Source of the DNA: Corallium rubrum
Taxonomy: Eukaryota > Cnidaria > Anthozoa > Scleralcyonacea > Coralliidae
Reading direction: 5' to 3'
Length of the DNA: 64,000 bases
Assembly: GCA_964035015.1 (NCBI GenBank)
Contig: OZ035997.1
Span: 10,753,207-10,817,206, forward strand
Numbering within the stretch: the first letter of the stretch is position 1; each line of letters opens with the position of its first letter. Under the pieces are notes generated by a model. The model saw only the letters and a list, made by a program, of their open reading frames with translations. It did not search any database and was not told the origin of the DNA. The position numbers and the translations under genes were made by a program. Below are positions 11,363 to 63,540 of the stretch, one piece after another.

Positions 11363-14300
11363 GTTTATTCGCATCACAAATAAATATTTACATCAATTGA
11401 TAAATACACAAATACATATGACATGGCACAGGTCACCAGAAATAGTAAAAGCTAAACGAGTCTGGTTACCTTTAGTTAAAATATTTCAAATAATATCTGT
11501 ATATTCTAGGGTGAGGCGGTTCAGGGTAAAAACCGAAAACCGAAAACCGCCTGGAAAAACCCGAAAAACCCGAAAAAATCGATATTTATATCTGTAGATT
11601 TACTTGATTAAACTTCACGCTACACGTTCAAGACTTTAGTTTTTAAAACAGTTAGTACAATGTATCGTAATATTTACAAGAATTAAATTTTCAAACATTG
11701 TAGCTATATACGTTCTACACACAAGGAAATGACTAAGTAACAGTAAAACTGGCTTTCTTTCTATCTATATACAAGCGAATGCGATAGTCTATCCTTACAA
11801 ATTCTCCGCTAGGAAGACAAGTTTGTCAACTTTCTCGGGCTTTAGTTGCGCTCGCGCTGGTGTAGCAACTTGCCCCGCTTTGCTAAAAAGCCTCTCTGAT
11901 GGCGAACTGGTGGCTTGAATGGCGAGATATATTCTTGCCAATTGTGACAGTAACGGAAGTTCTTTTGCGTTAACCGTCCACCATTCTAAAGGTTCGTCGT
12001 CTCCGTCAATGACTGGATAACTGAGGTAAGTGTCAATCTCCTTGGAGAGACGGCTATGTGGAGAGGCTGCTGGTGACGCCGTTTCTTTCTTTTTCAGGCT
12101 GGTCAATGCCCCAAGGCTGAGTTTTGCCTTCTTTGCAGCGGGCGATGGCAAGACATCTTCTTCTTCTTCTTCAATGCTGCACTCTAGAAGAACAACATTC
12201 TTCAAGAGCTCGTCTTTGACATTGTTCAATTCTTCGCTTTCTGTTTCTAAAAAATCAGTCTTGTATCTAGCATCCAAGAATGATGCGACATTCATCAAAC
12301 CTTTCAATCGATCGGCAACATAACGCGCTTGTAGTCGCGTCATGACCTCCTCCTTGATTTCGGCGGCCAATGGCAAATCGTCATCTTGAGGGGCCAATTC
12401 AGTTGTTGACAGGCGATGGAGAATTGGCTTTAACGCACTTATTGTCACATAGTTGCTCGCAGACATAATATCTGTGAACGCCTTCAGCGGACCAAGTGCT
12501 TTATCCACACACTCCAAGACTTCCAAATCTTGCCACTTCGGGACCAAATGGGAAGTATCCTTGTCGTTGCCAAGAACTCGTCGAATGGCCTTCTTATTGC
12601 GCAGCACCCTGCTGATCATGTGTTGTGTGGAACCCCAACGTGTTGGGCACATCTAAAATCATTGTTCATGCGACACAACAAAAATTGTTTAGTAAAAAAC
12701 AGTAACTAAGTTTTGAAACTTTTGATTGACTTAAGTTTATATAGTCTCAATAATACATAACACATTGCTCACGAACCTATTAATATAATGATATTAAAAA
12801 TACTCAATTACTCAATACCCACCGATGACAAATTCTTGAACTTTTGTCCAGGTTCCTCTTGAACTTGAGCTGCGGCAAGATCTCTCCGTCTCTTCCAGCT
12901 TGTGCCAAAAGCTGCCACGATTTTCTTGGATACACCCAATGCACGCTGTACTCTTGGGTTGTTCTTCATGGTATTGGTGATTGCGAGGTGGAGATTGTGT
13001 CCAAAACATGGCAAGTTTGTCCATTTGTTGTCTTTGCAGGCTTTCTTTATGTTTGAACCATTGTCTGTGGTTATGGCAATTTGCTTCGAAGCGCTCAGTT
13101 TCCAATGCCCAAGCATGTCGTTCATCGTCTCGGTCAACTGTTCGGCAGTGTGGTCATCAGGAACAAACTTTGTCCCAAGGTTTCGGCTTTGTAACTTCCA
13201 CTCAGCGTCTACCCAATGCAACGTGAATCCCATGTACGGTGTCAAGCCGTGAGAAGACCACATGTCAGTTGTAGATGCGAAGTAGTTTATGCTGTTTAAG
13301 TCTAGCATAACTGCTTCTCTGGTGACATCATACAGCTTTGCAAGTTTGTTTTTCGAAAACGTTGTCTTGTTTGGAATCTTGTAGCGTGGCTCTAATACGT
13401 TCAATAGTTTTTGAAATCCTGGTCGACTCACTGCGTTAAACGGGACGTTGTCTTTACAGAGAAAGTATGTGATGGCATCTGTTATACTTTCGTGGCGCTT
13501 GTTACCAGGTGTTAATGGCGTGCTGCTGGCAAAGAGGCTCTTTACTGTAGGTTGGGTAACTTGCGTATCTGATGAAACTGGGCTGCTATCGCTTGTCGCT
13601 CGACTCGGTGCTGACTTTCGTCCTGATGGAGTCATCGTCGCATATTGGGAAGGATGGGTTCTTCGAAGATGTTGCAGCAAATTGGTTGTGTTTCCTCCCT
13701 TGTTTTTAACGGACTGCGTACAGATTTTGCACACGGCAAAATCCTCTCCTCTTTCTGGCTTCTTAAAGAAATTCCAAACTGCACTCTTACTCATTTTAAC
13801 AAAAACAGAAAGACTTCGGGATAGTGTACGCAAACGACCAACTGAAGTTTAATGTTTGAATGCTATTGCACGTGTTTATATGTTAATTTGTTAACTCTGA
13901 ATATTTTTGCGATGAGTCATACGCTACCTGTCTTCGCAGAGGTCCGCTTTCTGTTGAACCAATCAGGGCGCTGATTTGCTGAACCAATCAAGCGTGTGAT
14001 CCGGCTTAGCTTTGATGCTTCGCTTCCCTGTAATTATTACTGCCATTTTGTTTCAATGTTACTGAGATTCAAACGGGTTTTTTCGGTTTTTTGCCTGGAG
14101 CAACATCGGTCGAATCGGTTTTCGAAAAACATCGGTTTTTTCCGGTTTATCGATTAACCGCCTCACCCTACTATATTCAAATTTGTACATTTAATATCAA
14201 GGTATTTCTCTGATTAATTTTTATATACTTGTGGCGTTCTAGTAAATGCAAATCAAATCTTCCGCGATTTTATTTTTGAAAGATGATTTGCTAAGAGTTT

Positions 14301-17300
14301 TAAATTTATCATCAAGAACATTCCATGCCTGAGGACCCTGACACCGAAGACTGAATTTGCCATAATTAGTTCTTACTGTATCGATATAATATGTACTTCT
14401 CGAAGCTAATCTCGTATTATAATTATGGACTGATGTTACATGTTTGAAGAAGCTATTAAATAAAGGCGGAAGGTTGTTGAAAGTCGTACATGAATAAAGC
14501 ATTGTGGAAAAATACAAGGTCAACAAATTTCAAAATATCAGGAGTTTTAAATAAGGGACTAGAATGGTCATCAAATTTAGAAAAGTAATAATTCGAACAA
14601 CTCTTTCTTGTAAGATTATAATTGGGTTAAGATTAGAAATGTAAGTGTTCCCCCACACCGTTATACTGTAAGTCAAGTATGGGTAAATCAGGCAATAATA
14701 TAGTTGAGTAGTTACATGTACATGTGACGTAACAATAACGAATTTTGGATAACACACCAATACTCCTCTTGATTTTTTTTGAAACATGTTGAATATGACT
14801 TTTCCAGTTAAGGTTACAATGTATATGGATTCCTAAGTATTTGATGCTAGTTTCTTGTTTAATTTGTATTTGATTAATAAAAAGTTTTATTGTAAATCTA
14901 ATTTTCTTTTGAGGTGGCCGGAAGATACATGTAACAAAATTTGTCTTATTAATATTCAGAGAAAGTTTATTACAATTAAACCATGAATTAATATCTGCAA
15001 TGTTATCATTAACAACATGTTCCAGGTCTGAGATGCTCTTATTAGTACAAAACAGATTGGAGTCATCAGCGAAGAGATGAAATCAAAAATTTTGTGGAAA
15101 TCGTTTAGATATAAAAGAAATAACAACGGACCGAGTACAGAACCTTGAGGAACGCCACAAGGGACAACATGCTCATCAGACGTTGAACTGCCAATAGATA
15201 CAAATTGTCTTCGATTTTCTAAATACGAAGTAATAAACCATGCAATCTTTTACTATACCCCGAATACCATAATGCTCAAGTTTAGTTATTAAGATTTTGT
15301 GGTTAACAGTGTCAAATGCTTTACTCGAATCCAAAAAAATACAAGAAAATAAGCCTTGAATTTTATCAGTAATTAATGACTGCTTGTACTGTAGAGTGCT
15401 TAGACCTGAATCCAAATTGTCCCTTATAAAGAATTTTTCTTTTCAGCTCAATATAATTGGTTAGCCTATTGTATATTAATTTTTCTAGTATTTTATTAAA
15501 GATTGAGAGCAAGGAGATCGGACGATAATTGCTGACACAAGTTTGAGAGCCTTTTTTGAATATAGGAATTACACGTGCTAATTTGAAACTTTCAGGCACC
15601 ACTCCAGTCACAAATGAACAGTTGAAAAGTATTTCTAGTGGCTTAGATAAGTGGTATATATTGAGTATTTTAAGTAATTTAATTGGTATACTAAATGGCC
15701 CAGTGGCATTTGTAGAATTTAAACTGTTAATTTCCTGTTCAATTTCATTCCTTGTAATAGGACTGAGAAAAAAGCTAGAAGTTTGAGTGGGTTCATGTAA
15801 CTTAAGGGTGAAATATTTGTACTAGGAATTGAGCTAGCAAGATGGTTTCCTATGTTAGAAATATATTCATTAAAGGTTTTTGTAATTTCTTGAACATCTA
15901 TAATTTCAGTATTATCTTTGATTAGTTTAGAGGGTGTGGTTAATTTTTTGGTTTAAGTGTAATTAGATCTTTTATTCCTCTCCAAATAGCTTTAACATTC
16001 CTATTATTTTTTGTAAAATAATTATTATAATACTTTTCCTTACTAACTTTTAATAATTTATTTAATTTATTTCTATATATTTTGTATTTATTTTTAACTA
16101 TATATTTTTAATTTTAATAGAAACCTTAATACCTTGTGTAATCCAAGGTTTAGAAAGAAATTTAATCTGCTTTTTACTGAGCTTCTTAAGAAGGGTGTGC
16201 TTATCAATAATGTGAAAAATTGTAGAATAAAATCCGTCGAAAATGATATTAACATCGCAATTATGGGGGGAAATAGTTTTCCAATTTCAGATTTTATTTC
16301 ATCAATTAAAGCACTTTCATCTAAATTTGAATAATCTCTTTTATATATCTTGAAATTTTTCGGTAATGCTTTGAGTTTATTAATGAGAAAATTACGAAGA
16401 TGATCAGAGATGTCAGAGAGAATATTACCACTTATAAAGGATAAAGGACTGGGTGGCTAATCATCCTTACTTGCAGCCAGCGTCTGAATTGCGAAGGACG
16501 CAGAGCATTAACGTGGCGGTGTCGAGGCATATCAAAGGCGCTTGAAGCAGCCGCCAACGACACAGTTCAGACCACGGATCACAGCTAAGATGTTAGGTGT
16601 TGATTTTATGGAGGGAGGAAAACCGGAGAACCCGGCGAAACACCATCGAAGCACAGGAGAGATAAACTACAACTCTACTCACATGAGTCCAAGCACGACA
16701 ATGGGGTAATTGGGGTAATTCCCAAGCGGTCACCCATCCAAGTACTAACCCCGTCTAACCGGGCTTAACTCTTTGGTGAGAGGCAGCGCGCTAACAGCAC
16801 ACGCCACCCGTGCTCCCCTATACTTAAAAGAATATTTTATCGATACGAGTTGCAGTGTGGTTAGTTATTCTTGTTGGTTTCAGGATATGTGGAGTATAAA
16901 AATAAGAACTCATGGTATTAACAAAATTCTCAGTAGGGGTATGAGATGAATAATCAATAAGGTTTATGTTAAAATCTCCCAAGATAATACAAGTTTTATT
17001 TTCCTGTTGGATTTTATCAAAGCATAGATATAAATAATTAGTAAATGAATCTAGATTGGCTCTGGGATGCCTATACAAAACACTAGATTAATTTTTGATT
17101 GGGAATTCCAATATCAACCCACAAGCCTTGGAATTCTTCTTTTGACAAACTTTAGTAATTTCTTACAATATAGTTTAAAGTTTCAGTTATACACCACCCG
17201 CATTAGTGAGGCTTGGTTGTGATACAAAATTATATCCAGGTAAATCAATATGGACTAGACAATCTTTACCAGTTTTTATTTTAGTTTCAGATAACCCTAT

Positions 17301-27893: not shown

Positions 27894-27899
27894 TTTATT
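27894..27899 (-). promoter_or_regulatory. Possible polyadenylation signal of the cGLR gene
   Basis: AATAAA on the minus strand about 310 nt after the stop codon. Position is reasonable, but the sequence is AT-rich and the motif is common. Confidence 0.3.
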
Positions 27900-28204: not shown

Positions 28205-29220
28205 TTAATATATTGCAAGGTTGCTGTGCAACAATTCTTCACAGTATTCTTTTGGATCATCTTCTAGTTCTTTGATTATTGACCCAAGACTTCTGCTGAC
28301 TGAAGTAACTTGTTTTTCGTTAAACCATGTATAAAAGTTATGGCTTGGTACAAAAAAATTCAAAAGCTTCTTATTTTCCACGTCTTGCTTTACTCTACTT
28401 AATAAATCTACGGTTCTCGGGCCGAGTTTGCTTGGCAGCCAATATTCGTTTTCAGGATGTTCTGCCATCAAATGCATCATGGTCATCTTTAAATGATAAC
28501 TTTTTATATCCTGCACAAGACATTCGGATCTTCGATCACAACCACGAATAAGTTTGGCTATTTTTAGGCATTCCTTTTGGCAACCGTTTTTGCAAGCTGG
28601 CCGCATTAACTTTTTCTCTGCAACAGAGAATGACATTCGCCAAAGAATTCTTGGCGAGACATCTTCAATTGGATCTGGGCATTGCTTTGGAACTAGATGA
28701 TACACGTTCTTGCATTCGTTGACTTTGCTTGCACTGGGCCAAGAACGAGGTGTGGCATGGTCACCCCAAAGACATGCCGATCCGGTGGTCGGCCAAGCTT
28801 TCATTTCAATGCTAAACACCAAGTCCACCTGCATAGGTGGTTTATCTTTTTCTTTAATAGAGATTGTTACAGCAGGACTTCCAGTTTTGGATTCATTGAT
28901 GACTCTTAAACTCGCCAACTGGGAGTCTTCTCGCGTTGTAATATTTTTAACTGCTTCTCTAATTCTTTTTTTAAAGTACCGCATTACTTTGTACGACGAA
29001 AGATACGGCTCTGCTGATGTTTCATCATCAAGGAAATTTCTAAGAAAATGGTTTCCTCGTTCTGAAAGGTTTACTCCGTGTTTTCGTACGAGTTTGGCAT
29101 AAGCTGTAGCACCGCAATGTTTTTCGCATCTTACTTTAAAAACATCTTCAATTTGAGAAAATACGAACATTACATCAAACTCGCTGGGCTTATCCACCTT
29201 TAAGCCTTCCATGGAACTAC
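28205..29220 (-). CDS. cGLR exon 3 (catalytic core and C-lobe)
   Basis: 1016 nt after acceptor GCGTTTTCAG; encodes G136 (shared) to Y473 and the stop. Holds the whole E149/D151/D268 triad and the Mab-21 C-lobe. An internal ATG at 29212 would give a 335-aa product lacking the GS motif, so it is not the start. Confidence 0.9.
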
Positions 29221-32170
29221 CTGAAAACGCAAAATACAGAGCCTTAGCTTAGCATGGAAGAGGGAATTAGTTGGGGCATGGAGGGAGGCTACCTGTGACA
29301 GATGTATTTAGAAATGAAATATTTATATGCCAGTGCATGACAAGGACAAATGTCTAGCTATAATAAAATCTTGAAATAATACTCGAGGTCTCCTCAAATT
29401 ATTTGTTTTAATTAGTCTTTAATTTTGTTATTTGAGAAACCGATTAATTTAATATTAATGTAATGATTATTACTACAATATATAAACTATACATACCAGA
29501 ATCTAAGACCCCGTTTACACGGTACAGCGGACGAATTCGGAACCGGTCTCGAATTAGTACGGTTCCGCCTGTTTACACGGTGAAATAGGACGAATTCGGG
29601 ACTGCTCGCGAATTCGTCCGGTGTGTAAACGTAGTTACTTTTCACATGCCTCGGTTTCCTTTGTTTTTTAGGGGAATATATTCAATAGCCCCCTGGCAAA
29701 ACAATAGATTAATATTCCCCTCATATTCCCCTCTAAGGCTCCAATATTCCCCTCTACCATTCCTCGCTATAATATTCTCCTCTAATCTTCCCGTCTAATA
29801 TCCCCCGCACCACTCCTTATCTTATGAAATCCTGTCAACCTCGCCATGTGAAAAGTAAGTACGTTTCGAGGCCCCTTGGGGATATGTGTTTATTCACCTC
29901 GGGCTTCGCCCTCGGTGAATAAATCATATATCCCCTCGTGGCCTCAAAATAACCTATAGATCGTTTTCACTCACGTGATCGGTGGCCCCATTGGGGTGGT
30001 GAAACAATACGAAATATTTGAATAAGAAAGAACTAATTCCCATACCGTACACCAATATGGCCGCCATTTCATTGTTTTGGTACACCAATATGGCCGCCGT
30101 GACGTCAGATGAAAACGATCTATACTTGATGACCAATATCACTAGTTAATATTATACAATTATTATTTTGATGGTTTGAGCCTTCAGTCTTTGTTATTTC
30201 TTACGTTTTTCTCTGATAAAGGGCCTTCGCTCGAAACACTGCCTACGCAGCACGCTACAATTTATTTCACTTTAGTCCGCTTATAGTGTTTGACACTGCA
30301 TGGTGTCCGTTGAACTGCAGTTGTGACATTTATTTCAACGTCAGTTTTAAGCGAATGTATATATTGCCAGATACATCCTTAGCAAGAACAATTAAACAAG
30401 GGTGGCGAAATAGGGGGGCTATGGGGCCGTATAGCTCCCCCAATATTTTGGATAGCCTCCCCTATATCTTCCACAATGGAGCTAAAAATGGCCTAATATT
30501 TGCTGGGGGGGGGGGGGGGATACACTTTTTGTCATGCTATTGGCAAATTAGCCACTACATATATCTTCCACTGCAATTAAAATATACACGAATGTAGTGT
30601 AAATTACTAAGACTGATTTTGTAATGTTCCTAATTATTGCAGAACGCTATCTGCAATCAGTGATTTGAAATGCTTTACCTGTATATAATAGTTCAAATTT
30701 AGAAAAAAACGCCGGATCCAAACCACGACATTCCTTCACTATCTGCTCCACTCGCTTCATTACTACCTTCTTATTATTTCGCACTTCCAGTCTTTTTAGT
30801 ATTCCACGCTCTTTCAGGATATACCTCAGATATTTTGTACTCACAATATTACATCTAGATATCTTTGCGACTTTTACACCTGACCTAAAAAGAAAGACAA
30901 GTATTACTCAAGTCGTACGTCAATGGCCTACTTAGTATATTTATATTTTCTTATTTATTTTTATTGAAATTTTGAAGCTGTTTATTAACCCTTAGAGTAC
31001 CGGGAATTTCCCTATTGACGAGTAAAATCGTCTGGCGTCCAGAGCAAAATACTAAACGTATATGTGCAGGGAGGCCGGGGGGACCTGGGCCCCCCACTTC
31101 TTTTTTTTTGGGGGGGGGGGGGCAGAATATGTTTGGGCCCCCCCACTAGCTTTTTTAACAAGGCCGGTAATTAAGTTATGATTAACAAAATCACTAACCC
31201 TAGCTAACCCACGACTTTGAATAGATATAATAAAGAAATTTGAATGCAGATATTCAATATCTGGAAAAGTGTTGTCTTTTGAGTATTTTATGACGTGTTT
31301 AGAATTCTGTAAATCCTTGTCCCAAAATGCAGGAAATGGCATTTCAGAGACTCTAGATTTCAAAATTTCCCGGGAGAGCATGCCCCTGGACCCCCTAAAA
31401 ATATTAACCCGCCCCCCCCCCCCCCCCACCACCACCACCACCACCACTCTTAGTGTCGCTTCGACACTCCTGTTAATACATGTCAGTACTGAAAAGGTTA
31501 AACGAACTCGGGGAAAAGAACCACAAATGCCTACTTAGACGTCATCTTTATTATATTCGTCATCTTTATTTTTGGAAATGACAACTGAAATAAAAATCCC
31601 AATAAAAAAAATATTTTGGCATCAAGTATTAGTCAATAGTTAAATGCCAAATATTTTTTGAATCAGTTTTCGTATATAATCCATATCAGTGTATTGTATT
31701 TGAGGCTATACCCACTTCAAAAAACACGGTTGAGCGATTGTACCCAACTGCTCAGTTATATTAGATGTGATTGCTTCTTTAAATTGTCTTCACCGTGCAC
31801 AAGTTTGCATAAACCATAAACAAAAAGATAGAACAAAGACGTTTTCTGAATTCCTATATACTAGACAATGTCTCTACTGTATCGTACAAGCCTGTAATAG
31901 TGCAGCCCAGTATAAAATCTGAATATCACTGAAGATTAATTGATATCTAAGATATATAAAACAAACTTACTTTGCATGGTCCATCGCCATGTCTTCAGTA
32001 ACATCCTGATCTTCATCATCATCATCAGAGGCAGAACTTTCAGAATGATAAGACGCACTATCGTCGCTCTGCGAAGCATTTTTAACGGCTGCTTTTAACC
32101 CTGAATCAGCAACATTATCGTCTGCTTCACATGCAGTTTTACAATCGACTTTTTTCCGACTGGTTTTCAT
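28205..32170 (-). CDS. cGAS-like receptor / Mab-21 domain nucleotidyltransferase, complete, 473 aa
   Basis: Three exons: 32170-31971, 30884-30679, 29220-28205. Splice phases (2, then 1) fit exactly. Family knowledge: cGAS-like receptors sense nucleic acid or other cues and make cyclic dinucleotide second messengers for STING-type signalling in the cytosol. Seen here: an acidic serine-rich tail (residues 1-66), a helical segment, then TGSSMEGLK (135-143), the G-S nucleotide-binding motif, made by joining exons 2 and 3. Next come E149 and D151 in SEFDVMF, and D268 in MQVDLVFSIEMKAWP. The C-terminal Mab-21 lobe has WRMSFS (329-334), a short Cys cluster C345-x3-C349-x3-C353 where cGAS has its zinc thumb, and SYHLKMTMMH (377-386). 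The thumb is reduced: no His and no Cys-Cys pair, so DNA sensing like vertebrate cGAS is not assured. The triad suggests an active enzyme. Ligand and product are unknown. Confidence 0.85.
29508..29640. repeat. Partial relative of the GACCCCGTTTACACG element
   Basis: Starts GACCCCGTTTACACGGTAC, has internal inverted CGAATTCG-rich segments, and ends GGTGTGTAAACG. No matching opposite full terminus. Confidence 0.6.
29870..30125. repeat. Two adjoining inverted repeats
   Basis: First, CGAGGCCCCTTGGGGATAT.. with complement and a CCTCGGGC/GCCCTCGG centre (29865-29950). Second, CTATAGATCGTTTTCA (29953) with TGAAAACGATCTATA (30109), enclosing CCAATATGGCCGCC twice. Upstream of cGLR exon 3, in its intron. 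Confidence 0.7.
30679..30884 (-). CDS. cGLR exon 2 (helical spine)
   Basis: 206 nt after acceptor TTTTTAG. Encodes S68-T135, including STKYLRYILKERG and the basic KKVVMKRVEQIVK helix, ending FELLYT(G). Donor GTAAAG at 30678. Such a helix followed by the GS motif is the family order. Confidence 0.85.
31060..31460. mobile_element. Diverged relatives/fragments of the CAGGGACGTAGC hAT MITE family
   Basis: The stretch 31265-31400 shares the order AAATGGCATTTC, TTTCAAAATTTCCCGGG, GCATGCCCCTGGACCCCC with the intact copies. Ends are replaced by poly-G/C and (ACC)n runs. Related scraps occur at about 42085-42225 and 43540-43700. No duplications found. Confidence 0.5.
31971..32170 (-). CDS. cGLR exon 1 (start and acidic tail)
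   Basis: Starts with ATG at 32170 (MKTSRKKVDCK) and encodes 66 residues plus 2 nt. Rich in S/D/E from about residue 33, likely disordered. Donor GTAAGT at 31970. The phase fits exon 2, making K67. Confidence 0.75.
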
Positions 32171-32199: not shown

Positions 32200-34000
32200 A
32201 AAAATTTTTTGCACTCGATATCAATGTAAATGGTTATTGATGAAGCCACAAAATTAGAATTATAACTTCTATTTTTATATGTTATTATATACCGCACAAA
32301 CGAAAAGCGAAATATTGACTGATGATGGATTGTCAGCTCCTATTATTTATACTTTCATTTTATTTAATTAATTTTCATTTTCAGTCATGGCATGCAGCAT
32401 GTGTTATATTGCCTTGTGCGTTTGCCAATGATCACCATATAGTCGGCAGATTTTATATTTTATTCATATAACCAGAAAAAATATATGGGGGTTTTACCTG
32501 TACAGTACTGCTGATGTATCACTTTTCCATGACAAAATGTGAAAACGTAGATTTTGCCGGGAAATTGAGGAGTGATATTGCAGGTGCATGGTCGTAAAAA
32601 ACACATTATTTTGTTATGTACTATTTACAATATGAGTGGCCGTGTTCCAATACAACATGGACACGAATATTGTAAATAGCTTAAAATACTCCGAGTCTTT
32701 GATGTTAATACGAGTAATATTTGTTCAGATTAATTCAGAAAAAGCTTAATTTCAATGTTTTATAGCTGAGATAGACCTGATATACAACTACTAGTGGTTG
32801 TATCAAATGATATGTATCAAATGATATGTATCAAATGATACAACCACGCGTGGTTTGTATTAGATATACATCCTCCTTCACGGTCATGATTTCTTTTGTG
32901 TTTTCTTCATGAATTATTAAATGAGTATTTTAAATATATTTTATCATGTTTTATCTGAAAAAAAGCCATTTCTTTTATTTAAAAATATATTCGTTCACCA
33001 TGTATGCAGGCATCATGTGCTGCTATGGCCTGATATCACAAAATGAAAAAGAAATTAATTAATTACAAACTCTGGAAATATCAAAATTGAAATTATTTGA
33101 AATTCGAGGTAACCAAAAGTGGAAGATTATTAACGACGCCGGTTTACGAATACGCTAGTGCCAGTATACTGACATGTTATACGGCTCCGCCCGAGGGGCG
33201 ACAAGCTGTGAATCACTCCCAAAAAAGCGTACGATTTCCCGTGGGATTTGTTTTTTTTTCTTTTTAGATTTTTTTAGATTTTTTTAGATTTTTTTAGATT
33301 TTTTTGAGATTTTTTGATTTTTGGAGATTTTTGCGCATTTTCTGGGAATTGTTTTTGAGATTTTTGGGATTAGAGATGTATTAGCTAGCTAGCTAGCTAG
33401 GTAACTGAATTTAATTGCATGACTTGCAATTATCTTACAAATACATGCATATAACATATAACATTAGATTGCTATTAACTTCAAATTTATAGAAATGAAT
33501 ATTGTCATGCAGAGCACACGGATATATAACAATTTGAGTATAGTTATTGTTTTCGGTTAATCACAAAAGGCTAGGTGATGAAACTGAATGAAACAAAAGG
33601 AAACTGAATTTACAAAATAAGATTTAATTCAAGACTGTGCTTTACTGAGTAGTGTAATACAAAGTGCATGAACTATTTAAAATGTATGAGCGGCCGTGTT
33701 CTATACGGGGTATATATACTCGAGCTAAAGGCGAGAGGTTGCATGTCCGATAGAACACGGACCCGAATATCGGTGAAGTGCTTGTGATACAAATAAATGT
33801 AAACGTTTAAATTCGTCAATAATCTTAAAGATAGAAATGCATGATTTTTGGTGAAAAACCGAACTGACGAAAAGCTTATGTAATCAGCAGGATTTTGTAT
33901 CAAAGATGCATGCAACTACTGTTAACTGATTATTATAAGTAATAGCATGTAACATATAGGTCGATCCGGCTCTGTAGGTTGATTAAGGGGATTACTAATG
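32200..34000. other. Intergenic, upstream of the cGLR gene
   Basis: Holds a TCAAATGATATGTA triple repeat inside inverted GGTTGTATC (32795-32860), related GGCCGTGTTC..GAACACGG inverted pairs near 32640 and 33690-33770, and the T-rich repeat. No gene seen. Confidence 0.5.
33258..33365 (+). repeat. T-rich 10-bp tandem repeat
   Basis: TTTTTAGATT repeated four to five times, then degenerating variants with GATTTTT. Confidence 0.85.
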
Positions 34001-38197: not shown

Positions 38198-39380
38198 TCA
38201 GTGAAACAGACTTGGGGTAATGTTCCAGACTTCCGAGGCGTATTCCAGGTAGACAGACTTCATAGTGGGTATGAGGAGCTCATCTCTGCAGATAGTACGG
38301 CGGATGAAGCCCAACATCTTATTAGCTTTGCTCACCTGGGTGTATATATGATCGTTGAATCTTGCATCATTCGTCATGAGAATCCCCAAGTCTCGCTGTT
38401 CTTGAACTCTTTTCAATCTCTGACCACCCATGCTATAATCATATATAATAGGTGAGCGTTTTCTTGTCACTGTGGAGATGGTGCACGTTAATTTCCCATA
38501 TTAAATGTTAATTTCCAATTTTTACTCAATTTGTTCAAATTTTCAATATAATTCTGTACTGAGTATTCGGCAATCACTCCCAGTTCTTATTGTGCGAAGG
38601 CACTTGGCGTCATCGGCAAACAACGCCCGAGAGAACACTAGGCATATCATTGTCCCATTGATAAATAAAACGAATAAAGCTGGTCCAAGGATTGAACTCT
38701 GTGGTACACTGGAAGTAACTTCTAGCCATTCTGAAGCAGGGACGTAGCCAGGGGGGAGCCAGGGGAGCCGCGGCTCCCCCCTTTTGATATAAAAGTAACT
38801 ACAAAACTGATGCAATATGAATTGTGTCAGGAAATAAACTGTAAACAGTGTATTCAATCTACTGAGTGTATGCATTTTGAGTATCTATGTGACGTTTGCG
38901 CGTTTTGAGTATTTTATATGACGTTTAGAGTCTGTAAAATCTTCCTCCAAAATCCAGGAAATGGCATGCATTTCAGCGACTCTCGATTTCAAAAGTATGC
39001 CCCCGGACCCCCCTAAAAATTTATTTTGATTTCGGCTCCTCCCTTTCAAAATCCTGGCTACGTCCCTGTTCTGAAGATTTACCATCAATCATGACGCGCT
39101 GTTTCCTATCACGCAAATAGTCCGTAAACCACTGTAGCAAAGGTCCTTTGATTCCAGTTTGTTCCAATTTACAAATGTCACAAATCAAATGTTCATGTGA
39201 GACAGAATCAAAGGCCTTCGAGAAGTCCAAAAAGACAATGTCTGACTGGCTTCCCTCGTCAATTGATTTAGTGAGGCGATGAACAATGTCAAGAAGCTGA
39301 GTTACCGTAGAACGACCTTTCAGAAATCCATGTTGCAAACAATAGATGTTATCAGCGAAAAATGGAAAAAAACTTGTCAA
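38198..39380 (-). pseudogene. LINE reverse transcriptase remnant (second LINE)
   Basis: Pieces: GFLKGRSTVTQLLDIVHRL and IVFLDFSKAFDSVSHEHLI (39380-39070), VPQSSILGPALFVLFIN and FADDAKCLRTI (38737 down to ~38543, catalytic FADD), DLGILMTNDARFNDHI and ASEVWNITPSL (38470-38198). The MITE insertion and frameshifts separate them. Confidence 0.88.
38737..39068. mobile_element. hAT MITE, CAGGGACGTAGC family, copy 3, inserted in a LINE
   Basis: 332 bp, termini CAGGGACGTAGCCAGG and CCTGGCTACGTCCCTG, perfect target duplication TTCTGAAG at 38729-38736 and 39069-39076. It splits the reverse transcriptase frame of the LINE at 37552-40260. Confidence 0.92.
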
Positions 39381-39627
39381 ATATACATCGTTCAGCTATC
39401 TTAGAAACTAGACCGTCCCAACAGGGAAATAGGTCTATAATTGGCCACGTCTTCATTATCTCCTTTCTTGTGAATATAGGCACAACATTAGCACATTTCC
39501 ATTCCTGGGGTACTTGACCAAGAGAAAGAGAGAGATTAATTAGCTAGCCGCGTGAGTGAAGGTGCGATTTCAACAGCACATTCTTTGAGTATTCTCCCAG
39601 GAATTTGGTCGGGACCACAAGCCTTAA

Positions 39628-43119: not shown

Positions 43120-44690
43120 CTCCACCTGCCGCTGATATGGGAATTTATTTGTTAAATTCAAAGATATTAATTAGTTAATTTTACATCAAATCATGCATCT
43201 TTTGCATGGATTGTGCCATTATTTCTAAGCTTTTAAAAATTGAAGATCGGACGTCAAATGTTTATCTGATATAGTACAGTGTACATGTATATAATATATA
43301 CCCTTTGCGCAAAGCGCTTCAGGCATCTACCCGCGGCTTGGTTGAGCCTGACTTCAGCATATATTTTGGTGAGACAAAATTGACGATTGATTGAGCTTTA
43401 CAGGGGCGCAACTAGAAAATTTCGAGGGCATGCGTTGAACGCAAAAAAAGAGCAAAGTCGTTCAGTATTCTAAACAATTTGGGAAACTAGATATCCTCGT
43501 TATGCTTTTTCGAGAACACTAAAATAACAACCACAACAACAATCAGTGCCGTAGCAAGGTGTCAAAAAGTGGTGGTGGTGGTGGTGGTGGTGGTGGTGGT
43601 GGGGGGGGGGGCACTAGTAGCAATTAGTGACCGCATTTGTAGGGGGGTCGGGGGGTCCTCCCCCGGAAATGTTTGAAATCAAGAACCTCGGTAACACCAT
43701 TTGCAGCAATGTGAGCGAACTTTTTCATCTAATTCTACAGGCGAGTATAGTTGAAATTTTACTGTAAAAACGAAGAAATTGAGAGATCAGATTTGCGGAG
43801 AATTATGTTGCGTACTACAACAGACGATTAATTATTTGTTTATCTAATGTCTAACCTAGTATTAGAGGTCTCACAGAAAGGGCAGGGGTTAGAAAGGGTA
43901 GGAGTTGCAACTCCCCCCCCCCCCCCTAGTTGTTAGCCGATCAAACTTTTGGCAGTTTGCACGCTCCTATTAAATCGGATATATCAAGTACACATGCCAT
44001 GCCCGTGGTTTAAATAACTTTCCCACACAGTACTTATGAAGGGCGGAAACATATTAATAATTCATAATTATATTGTACTAGTAATATTATCAATATCGGC
44101 AGTGTTTGTGTTTGGACCTGCGATAAAGATTAATAAAAAAAGAAGGCTCTACTCGCAGGGTATAAATTTGCAAAACTGCAAAAGTAATAATAAGCCTTCA
44201 GGCCTAACCTAACCGGCTCAGTCTAACTCTAACTCTAACTCTAACTCCAACTAACTCTAACTCTACTCTGGCCTGATTCTTACTCTAACCCATAACCCGA
44301 ACGTTAAATTTAAATTAAATTTATCATTTTATATATGGTGATTCCAAAAGTGGCCAATTGTATTTTAGGTGAATTTTATGCAAATCTTTCAAGCTACTAC
44401 ATGTAAAACTTATCCGAAGTCTAAACGTGATGACGTAACGTAGTGTCATACAAGGAAATGGCAATGGTAAATATAGTTTCCAGTATTTATTTGTTGACCG
44501 TGATCTTTGATCTTCATATGTATGTATACATTGAACATATAATTACAGGTATTTTCGTGCTGAATGAGACCAAAACAAGCAGATATAATTAAATATGTAA
44601 GAAGGAATAGTCAACCCAATGTTCACAGTTTTTTGTGTACCGAGGGATGGCTTGGATGTTAAATAATCTTTACATGTAACTATACAAGTG
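43120..44690. other. Upstream region of the ARAP-like gene
   Basis: Decayed MITE at 43540-43700, poly-C near 43912, and a short CTAACT tandem at 44223-44270. No promoter motif convincing enough to call. Confidence 0.45.
43568..43612 (+). repeat. (GGT)n then poly-G
   Basis: About 11 GGT units and a G run, within a decayed hAT-MITE fragment. Confidence 0.9.
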
Positions 44691-44698
44691 CGGAAACG

Positions 44699-46220
44699 AT
44701 GAACGAACATTTGAGGAAGCAAGATGGAGATGCAAAGGAATTTTTTAACTTTACAGAATGGCTAACGAACGAAGTGAAACTACCCCAGTATGCTGAGATC
44801 TTTCGTGACCAAGGTTTTGAACAGCCTTCTGATTGTTCTAGAATCGACGAAACCGTGCTTGATAAACTTGGAATTACGAAGATTGGTCACAGAAAACGAC
44901 TGTTGGGTTCGTGTCAGAAACTGGCCGATAGATATGGCTTATCGAGCGATGTTGCGACGGCAGCCAAGACTGGAGATGGTGAAATAGAAGAAAAACAGAG
45001 TGCAACCGAGAACGTTGATCTGTTGGGTGAAGTTGATGCTCCTCCTGTTCTTCCTCCGAAGAAGATAAATTTAAAGAAGATAAAACCTTCACCACCACCC
45101 AGAAGGCTCTCGCTCGAAACAGAACAGGAAGTATTGCATGTAAATGGCAGCGCCATGGAAGGACAAAACAACGTCTTAACTGGAGATCGTACCGAGTCTA
45201 CCGAGTTGGAATTGGATGTTGTTAATCCACCAGTGACAGAGTTGGGGAAGGATGAAAAAGTGACTGCTGACGCCATGAACAACGCAAAAAGTTCGACAAG
45301 TGACTGTCCACCAGGGCTTCCGCCTGGCACACCAATGGAAAGTTATGATCGCATTTGGGACTACAGTGAAGGAGAACCTCTGCCTATAAGCCCTGACAAA
45401 ACTGCTCACGAGTCATTTGATGGTAATTCTATTTCTAAAACTGGGAGTGATAATATTTCTTCTGAATCTTGGGGGCAGCTTGGTGTGTCAATGAATACTG
45501 GTATAGATATAAGTGTTGACAACAAGCAAACAAGTGAATCCCTTATCAAGGTCCCAGAGGAGCCTCCTCCCATTCCACCAAGGGTTGATCTAGATAGCAT
45601 AGCAGGTACTACATTGGATCCTTCAATATCGTCTACTGAACAAAACTCAGTACATGAAACCGTTTCTGAAGAAAGTAGTAATGTTACCACTGACAATACT
45701 GCAAAGTTAGCACCTGAACCTGCTGAGCAAAAGCCTGAAGAGAAACCAATTATGCGTCGAAAGAAAATTCCTCCCAAAAAACCTCCTAGATCAAACAAAT
45801 CGAAACCTGTTTCTATGTTTATACAACCTACTAATCCAGTGCCATGTACTGAGCCACGACGTAGCTTTGGGCAATCAAATATTCACAAATCCAATGAAGA
45901 AGATATTTATGAAAATGAAGTATTTTCCCCTCTGAGTGATGGACCAAAGGAACAACAAGTTTGTTTACCAGAAAATAAGGTACATGTTCCTGATGCTGTA
46001 TATAATAATCCCGAACAAACCAAAGATACAGATACCAGTCATGATGATGTCGATCATGACGATGGTAATATTTATGGCAATGTTGAGCAACCACAGAAAG
46101 TATCATTGCAACAGAAAACATCTATGCCAATTTTGGATTCAAGGGGATTATTAAAAAGACCAATTCCAGTACCAAGAAGTAAAAGTGTATCTGAGAGAGC
46201 TGGGATTGGAATTGCTTCAG
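44699..46220 (+). CDS. ARAP-like exon 1 (SAM domain and Pro-rich linker)
   Basis: 1522 nt, 507 codons plus one base, ending GIAS(G|). The donor GTAAAG at 46221 is chosen because exon 2 restores frame; reading on would add 32 unrelated residues before a stop at 46318. Start ATG follows GGAAACG. Confidence 0.85.
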
Positions 46221-46468
46221 GTAAAGTAAAACTAATAAATGTTGATAATATGTTTATTTGTTTAATTCAAGCAATCCAGGCAAACAGTTGTCATGTGAAT
46301 TTATATAATGAAATCTAATGCAACTAGTCAACTACATATATGTTTTTATGTCAAATGCTCAGATGTTATTTAATTACATTTATAATAATTGAATAAAAAA
46401 AATTTTAGCCAATAAAAATATATGTATGCATTGCATCCACATGTCTACACATACAGTAGTCAATAGAA

Positions 46469-59600: not shown

Positions 59601-61950
59601 CCAGTATCCGCAAAAAGGCTAGACGGACAGTTAGCTAATTATAATAAAATTATATACAAGAGTAGGTCAGATGAGAAGGTTACTGCAAGTACTAGTCAGA
59701 ATATTTATAGGTTACAGTACGATTGCAGTAAGACATTTTTTCAGTGTTTCCTTAAATTTTGATTTTCCTGATTTCTTCATCAATTTGGTTCCATTTAATA
59801 ATCCTAAATGAAGGCGGTCATCGTATATCGTATCTTTTTACAGTATATGTGATAAGGACATGCTTGCTGTTCTAATTAAGAAAAGTCCTGCTTTTACGCT
59901 GCTATTCAAAATTATCAATTTAGGAAGTTCACAGTCTTTCAGATTGGGAACATTGGGAGAGCATTTATATTTTACAACAAATGTCTCCTGCATTTTTGCG
60001 ATAATGAAGGATGAAAACTGCATTATGGTTTATACTTTAATGCATTATGGGACATAAAACGTTGATAAAAATATGTTTGACTTAACCTTAAAACAAGAAA
60101 AGGCAACTAACTAGCAGAAAACAATTTCTTTTTGTCGTGCATAGGATGTCTCAATCTCGTTCCCAGAGGCCACGTTCCCCACCCGGGAAACGAGAGAACG
60201 GGATAATCCGTTCACGCCATCACAGGATTCTTGTTATCCGGAAGAAGAGTTATATATAGTTCACTGTGTTCGTCAGCCAATGAAATATCGATGTGAAACG
60301 GATTATCCCAGAGCCTCTCTTTCCCAGGTGGGGAACGTAGGCTCTGGGAACAAGATTGAGGATGTCTGAGAACTACTGCAATGCCATAGCAACGCTAATT
60401 TAGGATGCGTTTGTGTTTCGGAGCATTTTGATATAGGAGTATAGCCAGAATAACGCACGCGATTGCTTGTGTAGGACCTATATTCCTAATACGAAATACT
60501 CGGAATTACCATTCCGTTAAAGGTTTCGTCAAGTCCGTTCTGCGCATGTACGAAACTAATGTTTACATCTTTATTTACAAAAAAAATATACTGATACCTT
60601 ATTCAAGTTTGTAAGCTTTTCTTGCTTCCTCTTCGTTACTTGTACTCAAAACAAAACATTTTTAGAAGAAATCGAAGAAATCCGAAGAGGTATCCTCACC
60701 GAATTGCTTAATTTTCTGCCATGTTCCTCCGAAAGGGTTTACACTGACCTGAGTACTTCATGTAATTATCTACGAATGGCGGATCGTGCGCAGAACAGAC
60801 TTGACGGCACCTTTAAGCCCTCCAGATTACCTCCAGATTAACAAGAATAATGTTCATTTGGAAAACCAGAGATCATGCTAGTTTGAAATATTTCTAATAT
60901 CTTATCCGGAATAACTCAAACGAACGCATCCTTAGCATAATAATGATTTATACACATGGAGATATTTGAGTAATTTTGTCTAGTTCATTCAAAGATACGC
61001 ATGAGTTTTTTGACGTAACATCATAGAGTATTATATATCAGACTGATTTAAATAACTCAAGAATGAAACGAGACACACAAAAGTAGTAAAGGACTTTTTA
61101 CTAATTTTAGATTTTTTTTTCAAACGAAGCAATGTATTCTCTTTTCGTTTAAAAATAATTCAGTCAACATTGAATTATGTGTTCACGGTATTTAATATTT
61201 TATCGTGTTTTTTAAGGTAGTTAATTTATAATTGAATGTGTTTTTTTTTGTTAATTCTCATTTAGTCTCGCCTCACGTACAAGGACGGTTACTTGTTTAA
61301 ACAAGGAGGGTAAGTTTTGTTTGTGATTTACTGGGTCTGTTCATGTACTGTACTGTACTCTACTACTCCTAATCCTAAGCCTAAGCCTAAGCGCGGGTTG
61401 CATGTGCTGTTAGCGCACGTTCTCTCTCCGCTAAGGACCGAAGTTAAGCCCGGTTAGACGGCATTAGTATTTGGATGGGTGACTTCTTGTCCAAGCTTGG
61501 GAGTCATGCGAGTAGAGTTTTTGACACTCTTCCGTGCTTCGAGCGTGTTACTCCGGGTCCTCCAATTTTCTACTCTCTGCAACTCACGCTGATTTACCTA
61601 TAATATTCTCAGTAAAAGCTACATGTTTTTTGCTTCATTGAAACTTTAAAAAGGTGGCGGAACGATTTGTGTGGATTTGCTCGTGTTAGTAAACCCCATA
61701 CATCCAGATGATTGTTTGACGCGATTAATCGCATGCAGTGTGTGAACTTGCCCTGAGGTTGTATATATATGAACGTCTTTTTCGAAGTCATATTCTTTTT
61801 GTGTGGCGAGATTTTTTATGGTAACCTTATGTTTCTTTTTTTTTTGTAACTTTCTCTTTCTGAAAATTATGTAGGCAGCAAAATAATAAAGGTTGGAAGA
61901 AAAGATGGGTTGTGTTTGATGGAAACGAGCTTTGTTATTACAAGGATAAG
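44699..61950 (+). CDS. ARAP-like SAM and PH domain protein, N-terminal 594 residues, gene runs off right edge
   Basis: Five exons: 44699-46220, 55177-55277, 58033-58071, 61266-61309, 61875-61950, all GT..AG and in phase. Family knowledge: ARAP proteins are PI(3,4,5)P3-dependent Arf and Rho GTPase-activating proteins at membranes and the actin cortex. Seen here: a SAM domain at residues ~17-83, with LGITKIGHRKRLL as in ARAP. Then come proline motifs (APPVLPPKK, PPPIPPR, KKIPPKKPPR), possible phosphotyrosine sites (DIYENEV, NIYGNVE, AVYNNPE), and the start of a PH domain: YKDGYLFKQGG, then KGWKKRWVVFDGNELCYYKD. The remaining PH domains, ArfGAP and RhoGAP would lie right of the window. SAM plus PH also occurs in CNK proteins, but the order SAM, long Pro-rich linker, PH fits ARAP better. 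Orthology is inferred from memory. Confidence 0.75.
46471..46502 (+). repeat. (TA)n, with further (TA)n at 46716-46735 and 47586-47623
   Basis: Three short AT dinucleotide tracts in ARAP-like intron 1. The third lies between partly inverted flanks (GGGTGCTTACCC / AAGCACCCACCC), so it may be the centre of a foldback. Confidence 0.85.
48667..48956. mobile_element. Inverted-repeat element of the GCTACTTTCGGG family
   Basis: Ends TACGTAAAGTTCCGAAAGTA and TACTTTCGGAACTTTACGGTA; interior contains reiterated CGCTACTTTCGGGG boxes. TA flanks would fit a Tc1/mariner-type target, but this is not certain. Confidence 0.7.
49246..49575. mobile_element. MITE, GGCGGCGTTCAGACTGAGT ends
   Basis: About 330 bp between inverted ends GGCGGCGTTCAGACTGAGTA and complement, each flanked by TTAAA. 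The interior repeats CGTGCCC/GGGCAC boxes. Confidence 0.8.
49783..50124. repeat. Near-perfect inverted repeat, two 150-bp arms
   Basis: Left arm 49783-49933 and right arm 49975-50124 are reverse complements with only a few mismatches; the spacer is about 41 bp. Both strands read almost the same peptide (VTLTVKKSMKMKFLSEKIY), which is a shadow of the symmetry. Lies in ARAP-like intron 1. Confidence 0.92.
51615..52215 (-). mobile_element. LINE 3' fragment with (TACA)n-type tail
   Basis: Minus strand reads LQRFQSRAARVLTGASYD, then MYNILNDHTAPGLKNSF (52072) and FKYSGAVLWNQLSCEAK. The 3' end has CTTTTAAATAAAGATTTACA then a short TACA repeat. Lies in ARAP-like intron 1. Confidence 0.78.
52790..53310. 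repeat. Older dispersed repeat split by the MITE at 52897
   Basis: Outer parts carry TTGGTGGGTTGCAATCAAT and CCAACCAACATGGCCGCCAT, also present together around 3290-3400. The second copy lets the pre-insertion order be seen. Confidence 0.7.
52897..53251. mobile_element. hAT-like MITE with perfect 8-bp duplication TTTTGTAC, nested in another repeat
   Basis: 355 bp. Long inverted ends CACTGATCTCAAATAATAGA and complement, flanked by TTTTGTAC at 52889-52896 and 53252-53259. It splits an older repeat (~52790-53310) whose relative is intact at ~3290-3410 (GGGTTGCAATCAAT..CGGCCATGTTGG). Confidence 0.9.
54732..54903. mobile_element. MITE, CAGGGACCGGTTGTATAAA ends
   Basis: 172 bp; ends CAGGGACCGGTTGTATAAAA and TTTTATACAACTGGCCCTG. 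The CAGGG start suggests hAT, but no target duplication is visible. Confidence 0.7.
55177..55277 (+). CDS. ARAP-like exon 2
   Basis: 101 nt after acceptor TTTGTCTAG, encoding (D)SGADGAGSCTDDDLSGSDRE then EMPTITEVSSTYE; donor GTACGT. Acidic linker. Phase 1 to 0. Confidence 0.7.
55750..55929. repeat. Palindrome with TCGAAACGTTAGACTC arms
   Basis: Arms of about 85 bp: GTAAGGTTAGATATACTGCC, GAGTCTAACGTTTCGAGCGA and complements, with loop near 55838. A single-arm relative GGGCCTTCGCTCGAAACACT with CTGCCTACGCAGCACGCTAC is at 30217-30265; the same CTGCCTACGCAGCACGCTAC follows here at ~55947. Confidence 0.85.
56862..57049 (+). pseudogene. Possible captured first exon, KDSxNTKKA motif (tyrosine-recombinase/DUF3504-like)
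   Basis: ATG at 56862 (CAATGGCGGAG) opens MAEFGETRKRF. After a frame slip the sequence continues DVDKKIVRLQENKDSGNTKK and ATNNASRSLETTTEWKQTLK. Proteins with a (K)DSxNTKKA block precede DUF3504/KIAA1958-like, Crypton-related domains in many animals. This is recognised from memory, one short piece only. It lies in an inverted-repeat-rich stretch. Confidence 0.35.
57340..57765. mobile_element. Foldback element, copy 2, uninterrupted
   Basis: Same blocks as 34820-36475 in reverse. It has a hairpin GAGGGAAATTAGCAATTAAA..GCTAGTTTCCCTC with C-rich loop, then several head-to-head TTAGAAG/CATGTTGATGAGGG repeats. It shows the pre-insertion site TTTCCTGTCGGTAAGATT. Lies in the intron between ARAP-like exons 2 and 3. 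Confidence 0.8.
58033..58071 (+). CDS. ARAP-like exon 3 (microexon)
   Basis: 39 nt between acceptor TGTTCTAG and donor GTGAGT, encoding TVDFPAISSSTQQ. Phase 0 at both ends, so it could be skipped without a frame change. Confidence 0.65.
60152..60358. mobile_element. MITE with 9-bp target duplication AGGATGTCT
   Basis: 207 bp, inverted ends CAATCTCGTTCCCAGAG and CTCTGGGAACAAGATTG, perfect duplication AGGATGTCT at 60143-60151 and 60359-60367. The 9-bp size points to the Mutator group. A single end (CTCTGGGAACGAGATTG) is also at 1141-1157. Confidence 0.88.
61266..61309 (+). CDS. ARAP-like exon 4 (PH domain start)
   Basis: 44 nt after acceptor CTCATTTAG; encodes SRLTYKDGYLFKQG(G), the first PH strand. 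Donor GTAAGT. Confidence 0.8.
61388..61590 (+). mobile_element. 5S rRNA-derived SINE, copy 3, partial
   Basis: Contains GTTAAGCCCGGTTAGACGGC and TATTTGGATGGGTGAC (5S promoter core) followed by a diverged body with GTGCTTC and ACTCCGGGTCCTCC. The 3' tail of the other copies is missing. It lies in the ARAP-like intron between the two PH exons. Confidence 0.75.
61875..61950 (+). CDS. ARAP-like exon 5 (PH domain strands)
   Basis: 76 nt after acceptor TTATGTAG; encodes QQNNKGWKKRWVVFDGNELC then YYKDK, a clear PH core (KKRWVV). Donor GTATGT. The next exon was not found up to 64000. Confidence 0.85.
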
Positions 61951-61959
61951 GTATGTATA

Positions 61960-63540
61960 GAAAAAGTAGAGTGTTGCGTAGGCAGTGTTTTAGATAGAGT
62001 GAAGTTAATATAAGCAAGGTGACTAAAGGTAGTAAACTGTCGAGAATAGTTTTTGATAACGAAATATACTCACGTTTTAAGCGAAGCTTTTCATCATAGT
62101 AAAATGCGGTGAAATGAAATAAAACAGACCTTATATAGCCAAACGTTGGGAGGTATAAACAAGTTGATATTAAGATGCAAAAATGTTAAATATTTGCTAT
62201 CTTTTACAATCGATACCACACTGTGGGGGAGGGAGAATAAATGAGGCTAAATACTCAAGGAGCTATGAGTGGGAGTAAAGCAGTAGAAAACAGAAACTTA
62301 AAAAGGAACGAGTGCATAGCTACCAGTGATAATATTGAGAAAGATAGAAAAAAAATGCATGAAATAAAATAAAATAAAAACGTTCGTTAAGGCACCAAGT
62401 TTGAAAATGAGACACCTCTCTTGCCGCTTACCGTTATCACTATACCATCTAAGTTTGGAGGGGTTGCATATACTTTATTATTATATGGAGAAGAGTATTT
62501 TACAAGCAACTAAAACACTCGTAGAATCCATATCTTACGACACCTGGGAACCGAGTGGCGTATTTCTCGTATGTAACGCTCGCGAGTGACATATCGATAA
62601 GTCAGAATTCCGTTAGTTTCGAATCAAGTAAATTTGAGCCAGTAACTTCTCTTAATTCAGTTTTTCACGTAAAATGACGTATTCGAATAAGCTAGTCCAT
62701 ATAATAAATAGAACATTACACGGTGGCGAGAAGATATGGATTTTATGTTTGTCAACGACATTGCGATGTTATTTTCAAGGAGTAGTTTTAACTCGGGTGA
62801 GAGGATTAGCCGGATTAACCCCTTCAGGGGAGTTATTTACAGGAGTTATTTTAACTCCATTCATGGCGTTATAATGACTCCAGCGGAGGGGTTTGTTAAT
62901 TTCAAGGCGTAGCTTTAAGGGGGTGATTACATGGAGAAATTTCAGCCCGGTATGGAAAAAAGGAGACTGATTTGAATACGAAACACGAAGTGTGGGAATC
63001 AGCCAAGTTGTCACAAACATGCAGCATAAACAAACATCATTTAGATTGCGTATTTCAAATAAACCATATTTATTACTTCTTTTAATATCACCTTTGGGTA
63101 TCTTTGGTATAAGGGACAACTTCTTAACCAAAGGAGATATAACGTTGTTAAAAAGATAGAAATGAGTTTTGTGGATTTACTACAAACGGAAACAATTGGC
63201 TTGCCAGGATTTTTAGGTTGATGGATTAAAGGAGTAAAATATATGACAGGCGTTTTGGGGTAGTTAACATAAGGTTAGACGCAGAGACAGGTAATTTTCC
63301 AGCTTGGATAAAATGGTTGGTGATGGTTTTTACAGGGTTTTTTCTGTGGAATGGAGTAAGTTGGATTTGAATTTAATTTAGTGTAAAAAAGTGGTGTCGC
63401 TGGCTCGCTGCTCTCCAGACAACCACAGCGCCACCATTCTCTTCAGGCTTTATGACAACGTCGTCCCGACATCGTATGTTTTCATGACATTCTACCGCCG
63501 GCAAGCCGTCGAATTTGAATCTGAGTCGCCGGCATATTAG
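61960..63540. other. ARAP-like intron after exon 5
   Basis: No next PH exon found. Minus-strand frame 63131-62775 has no recognised motif. Confidence 0.45.

Follow-up and report, generated by a model that had tools for sequence, protein, structure and literature searches.

An intact and probably functional cGAS-like receptor gene in the genome of Corallium rubrum

Background

The closest described systems are cGAS and the cGAS-like receptors (cGLRs), a family for which 3,020 enzymes from 583 species have been surveyed (Li et al., PMC9980059). In the sections of that survey on which we draw, members are recognised by an h[QT]GS motif followed after 8-20 residues by [DE]h[DE]h and, beyond a 50-90-residue spacer, by a third acid in h[DE]h. 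The same sections place dsDNA sensors near human cGAS in the tree and dsRNA sensors in other parts of it, name 2'3'-cGAMP as the commonest product, and give nucleic-acid-sensing cGLRs an isoelectric point (pI) above 8.5. For Mab21L1, the active site is counted as complete by the text of these sections and not by a legend.

The literature is also divided on the zinc ribbon. In the excerpted part of a review (PMC10855445), vertebrate cGAS members and cGLRs retain this element with three exceptions, whereas the alignment in the corresponding part of a shrimp paper (PMC12928593) contains non-human homologues without it, so that these two sources disagree on its conservation.

Here we describe a member of this family in C. 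rubrum (assembly of 474,352,983 bases in 312 contigs). The whole stretch of DNA that was analysed, hereafter the window, is 64 kb long (C1:10753207-10817206). Judging by its sequence, the gene within it is intact, probably functional, and related to cGAS. It adds a member to the known cGLR family, not something new in kind.

Results and discussion

The protein of 473 aa matched the Pfam families Mab-21 (9.7e-28, residues 139-342) and Mab-21_C (1.1e-15, residues 349-446), and the homology therefore spans the NTase core as well as the C-terminal helix bundle. This HMM search had been proposed in a preliminary description of the same DNA, which assigned the gene to the cGLR/Mab-21 family. The assignment is backed by the Pfam results, by matches in the PDB, and by the gene family and STING matches found in the same genome. 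Searching the PDB with the 473-aa query returned 43 distinct sequences with E no higher than 0.1, led by cGAS chains (E 4.9e-24, about 88 bits). For comparison we used 5xzb and 7bum, which we take to be mouse cGAS, and 4jlx, presumably pig cGAS. The window protein shares with them the NTase core plus helical domain and the TGS...EFDVMF...VD, W-R-x-S-F-S, K and SYH residues. It is unlike them in its low identity (about 31%; 96 identities over 308 aligned residues with mouse cGAS), in not keeping the zinc ribbon, and in its short acidic tail.

Matches other than cGAS were 8gjy (4.6e-23), Mab21L1 (5eog, 1.1e-16), 8gjw (2.6e-16), 7lt2 (3.2e-14), and MB21D2 (0.0014). The first of these, named 'cGAS-like receptor 1', scored 84.8 bits over query residues 115-453, but only 20.5 bits with the 170-residue NTase part alone. 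Meanwhile, 8gjw (also 'cGAS-like receptor 1') and 7lt2 ('Mab-21 domain-containing protein') belong to the same family and, at 62.5 and 55.7 bits, are more distant from the window protein than cGAS. Mab21L1, a developmental member of the family, scored 63.7 bits, about 24 bits below cGAS, so that the closest match does not lie in the Mab21L branch.

All of the 12 positions looked up, which we take to have catalytic or substrate roles in mouse cGAS, are kept in the window protein (T135, G136, S137, E149, D151, D268, R330, S332, S334, K358, S376, and Y377). These include the T-G-S motif and the acids E149/D151 and D268 to which the preliminary description had drawn attention. Each aligned with its mouse counterpart, and the displacement of the three acids from the catalytic triad, named there as an argument against competence, was not seen. 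The first part of the published pattern is present as Y-T-G-S, 11 residues, and E-F-D-V. The third acid lies in V-D268-L, aligned with mouse D307, after a spacer of 114 residues (about 90-92 in cGAS), and the literal pattern with its 50-90 residues is therefore unmatched. That written range is loose, since the spacers calculated from aligned lengths in pig cGAS (about 92), 8gjy (about 102), and 7lt2 (about 121) all exceed 90.

The zinc ribbon, with its histidine and three cysteines, is absent. Among the positions that we take to be the ligands in mouse cGAS (H378, C384, C385, and C392), one in four is aligned to a cysteine (mouse C385 = C345), H378 and C392 stand opposite gaps, and C384 stands opposite A344. 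The corresponding loop in mouse cGAS is longer by about 10 residues. The protein as a whole has a pI of 8.70, which rises to 9.33 for residues 67-473 and to 10.25 for the spine encoded by exon 2 (residues 67-134), and six of the eight basic positions looked up in mouse cGAS remain basic. Exon 1, in turn, encodes an acidic N-terminal tail (residues 1-66, pI 4.15). The tail of human cGAS is basic. With 66 residues, exon 1 fits the range of invertebrate tails, under 7 to 70 residues, in the cited part of the review (PMC10855445).

The missing zinc ribbon and the acidic exon 1 would also suit a catalytically competent cGLR that responds to a non-nucleic-acid ligand or is active by itself, and six enzymes active without added ligand are described in the sections of Li et al. 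considered here (PMC9980059). We regard this as unlikely, given that the acidic auto-active example in those sections has a pI of 5.0, against 9.33 for the domain and 10.25 for the spine in the window protein, values that suit nucleic acid.

The coding exons (Table 1) join in phase to a CDS of 1422 nt without internal stop or frameshift. The three-exon structure proposed earlier is thus upheld, its coordinates being correct and its four splice sites conforming to the GT-AG consensus. Exon 2 is bounded by the acceptor TTTTTAG and the donor GTAAAG. Exon 3 carries the remaining NTase core (E149, D151, and D268) and the Mab-21_C helical domain. Four codons upstream of the exon 1 ATG is an in-frame TGA, and the interval contains no AG. 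This leaves no possible acceptor there and makes exon 1 the first coding exon, if transcribed.

Table 1 Features of the cGLR gene, in positions of the window
Feature	Position	Strand	Details
Candidate core promoter	32317..32351	-	TATAAA, then TCAGTC initiator about 31 bases downstream
Coding exon 1	31971..32170	-	200 nt; ATG start, residues 1-66 and two bases of codon 67; donor GTAAGT
Intron 1	30885..31970	-	GT-AG
Coding exon 2	30679..30884	-	206 nt; last base of codon 67, residues 68-135, first base of codon 136
Intron 2	29221..30678	-	Phase 1, GT-AG; cuts the Gly codon of the GS motif as G/GT
Coding exon 3	28205..29220	-	1016 nt including stop; acceptor TTTTCAG
AATAAA polyadenylation-like signal	27894..27899	-	About 306 bases beyond the stop; seen in the sequence only

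Codon usage was scored with exon 3 and the window's SAM-domain ORF as the training set and with stop-free windows outside both genes as the null. The score of exon 1 in its frame was equalled by one of 632 such windows. That of exon 2 was weak by itself (17% of null windows attain it), and its coding status therefore rests on homology: the later part of exon 2 aligns with cGAS, and the exon 2/3 join passes through this alignment ungapped. No homologue of exon 1 was found among the 18 genomic loci searched, the best match (E 0.022) being an aspartate run. The TATAAA...TCAGTC pair has a single match in the window, against a mean of 0.11 in shuffled sequences (at least one in 10 of 100 shuffles), the motif having been picked after inspection of the sequence. 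A second gene copy within the window was considered and rejected, as E fell below 1 for the three exons only. Rfam and tRNA scans of the 64-kb window found nothing. A repeat in intron 1 (31440-31060) has a related inverted copy, recognised by eye, in the 3' flank (27600-27330).

The preliminary description correctly observed that the Gly codon is split over the exon 2/3 junction in phase 1. Its further claim that the GS motif is created by splicing is overstated and mostly wrong. The unspliced open frame, 347 aa long (29248-28205), contains FSGSSMEG, with G136 and S137 in place, because the terminal G of the intron followed by GT makes the same GGT codon, and we rejected the idea that the motif is lost in the open frame. 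The warning that a single-exon reading would miss GS holds for the ATG-started frame of 335 aa (M139 to Y473), which lacks the motif only because it starts at a later ATG, two residues after GS. It does not hold for the whole frame.

Nor is the split peculiar to the window gene, a possibility discarded on account of a paralogue 200 kb away (L013, C1:10.579 Mb, 29% identical). This gene has the same Gly split in the same phase 1, with the donor CAG/GTATGT and the acceptor TTTTTAG/GTAGT. At the sister locus (L014, C1:10.600 Mb), the acceptor G/GC AGT would fit the same split, and a search of about 25 kb upstream failed to reveal an exon 2. Eight further loci (L022-L029) have GS inside an uninterrupted frame, by pattern match in seven and by eye in L029, and in L015-L021 and L030 a GS motif was either not clear from the frames examined or not judged. 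The intron shared with L013 suggests inheritance, and the GS-codon intron looks inherited within the branch of the window gene. A literature search on intron positions in this family found no paper.

The genome contains at least 30 Mab-21 places (of 33 candidates scored, three with an internal stop), at least 33 Mab-21_C places (of 39 scored), and at least five STING_LBD places (of five scored, best 3e-49), where a place is an exon or a gene and the counts are lower bounds. The same family searches matched none of 14 control genomes. Viral contigs and prokaryote genome contigs gave three and five pattern stretches, respectively, with no relatives among them, and nothing matched in plasmids, as one would expect of a gene from an animal.

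The sister at C1:10.600 Mb has an open frame of 334 aa that is 44% identical to exon 3. Comparison of their 320 codons showed differences in 137 at position 1, 96 at position 2, and 190 at position 3, and 25 of 33 fourfold sites also differ, a pattern which points to long constraint on the protein. This bears on whether the locus could be decayed or mis-modelled, with exons that are not joined in life. The gene model is known from sequence alone, exon 1 is without a homologue, and exon 2 is weak in its codon score. In addition, the failure to find exon 2 in the closest sister copy makes decay in this group possible. Against this stand the stop-free 1422 nt, the four consensus splice sites, the ungapped homology over the exon 2/3 join, the intron shared with the paralogue, and the codon-position constraint on exon 3, and we consider such a locus extremely improbable.

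A tree of 13 rows was built from the window gene, 11 of the 18 fetched loci, and mouse cGAS, with no labelled Mab21L1 row. It omits L016 (Mab-21 frame not among the two longest), L017, L019, L020, L021, and L030 (short or partial), and L029 (frame broken by a repeat). The window gene and its sister at C1:10.600 Mb paired at 98/98; the next row by path was mouse cGAS, in a tree with weak deeper forks where long branches meet. A gene at C1:9.397 Mb, taken by eye as of Mab21L type, matches no GS...[DE]x[DE] pattern and is not paired with the window gene, its own placement being unsure.

The tree also bears on a reading of the window protein as a Mab21-like developmental or scaffold protein without nucleotide signal, in the way that shrimp Mab21 proteins act on IKK-epsilon. 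It has its domains in common with Mab21L1, and the shrimp proteins are said, in the part of the paper cited, to bind IKK-epsilon without the essential NTase residues (PMC12928593). The window protein, however, keeps 12 of 12 positions and scores higher with cGAS than with Mab21L1, and the Mab21L-type candidate sits elsewhere in the genome. A scaffold role is thus improbable.

Other loci of the genome displayed further architectures. On the minus strand of L014, tandem repeats of about 199 bp lie some 4-5 kb upstream of the sister exon 3. L025 (3927-6656, minus strand; C8:16.8 Mb) has a frame of 909 aa in which ankyrin-like repeats, read by eye, precede a Mab-21 domain that has both the GS and the acid motifs; ankyrin-cGLR fusions are reported in the cited sections of Li et al. 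(PMC9980059). L023, L024, and L029 (C18:7.72, C1:41.19, and C53:5.56 Mb) have frames of about 850-940 aa, in which an apparent second, degenerate NTase (by eye) stands ahead of the one that has the GS and acid motifs. The gene at L029 is interrupted by a long repeat of REVNDVDEV type. L022 belongs to a cluster of seven Mab-21 places at C12:15.74-15.81 Mb, whose frames measure 327-512 aa; two of the seven contain an internal stop.

We consider it likely that the window gene is a cGLR, that is, a nucleic-acid-activated synthase of a cyclic dinucleotide acting via STING. If the gene is expressed, double-stranded nucleic acid would be bound in the cytosol at a basic face formed by the spine and NTase core. 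Binding would order the GS loop and so allow E149, D151, and D268 to hold the metal ions, and two nucleotides would be joined into a cyclic dinucleotide. Judging by the base- and substrate-contact residues, which agree with those of mouse cGAS, these would most likely be ATP and GTP. The product, most likely 2'3'-cGAMP, would activate a STING protein of the same genome. From the sections of Li et al. cited above (PMC9980059), together with the pI of the domain and spine, we infer nucleic-acid activation, this product, and a STING receptor.

Several observations count against this prediction, namely the zinc ribbon with one of four ligands, the spacer of 114, an acidic exon 1 unlike the human cGAS tail, and a sister in which no exon 2 could be located. 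As for the ligand, a tree position near cGAS would favour dsDNA and the missing zinc ribbon disfavours it. Since the zinc ribbon of vertebrate type is missing, we rate dsRNA no lower than dsDNA as the likely ligand. We also put forward, as a speculative and rather unlikely proposal, that a cGAS-branch sensor lacking the zinc ribbon uses the acidic exon 1 as an electrostatic gate on the very basic spine. Displacement of the tail by long nucleic acid would be needed to turn the enzyme on, and the inherited GS-codon intron would divide the tail-plus-spine module from the catalytic one.

The window gene leaves the understanding of the cGLR family unchanged. It adds a complete, probably active gene model to a family with few members assigned a ligand and product, in a genome with the Mab-21 and STING repertoire counted above. 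Its cGAS-like active site without a zinc ribbon makes the question of dsDNA or dsRNA directly testable.

Elsewhere in the window, the plus strand carries a SAM-domain ORF with a proline-rich tail (44663-46318, Pfam 7.1e-11) and a PH-like exon read by eye (61864-62013), which together look to us like a gene of ARAP type. On the minus strand, a hAT-type transposase lies in two frames at 11795-13848 (Pfam BED finger 2.4e-12, hAT dimerisation region 1e-19). Reverse-transcriptase fragments occur on the same strand at 14633-15082, 15366-15821, and 39021-39395, two of the three at or above the Pfam cut-off.
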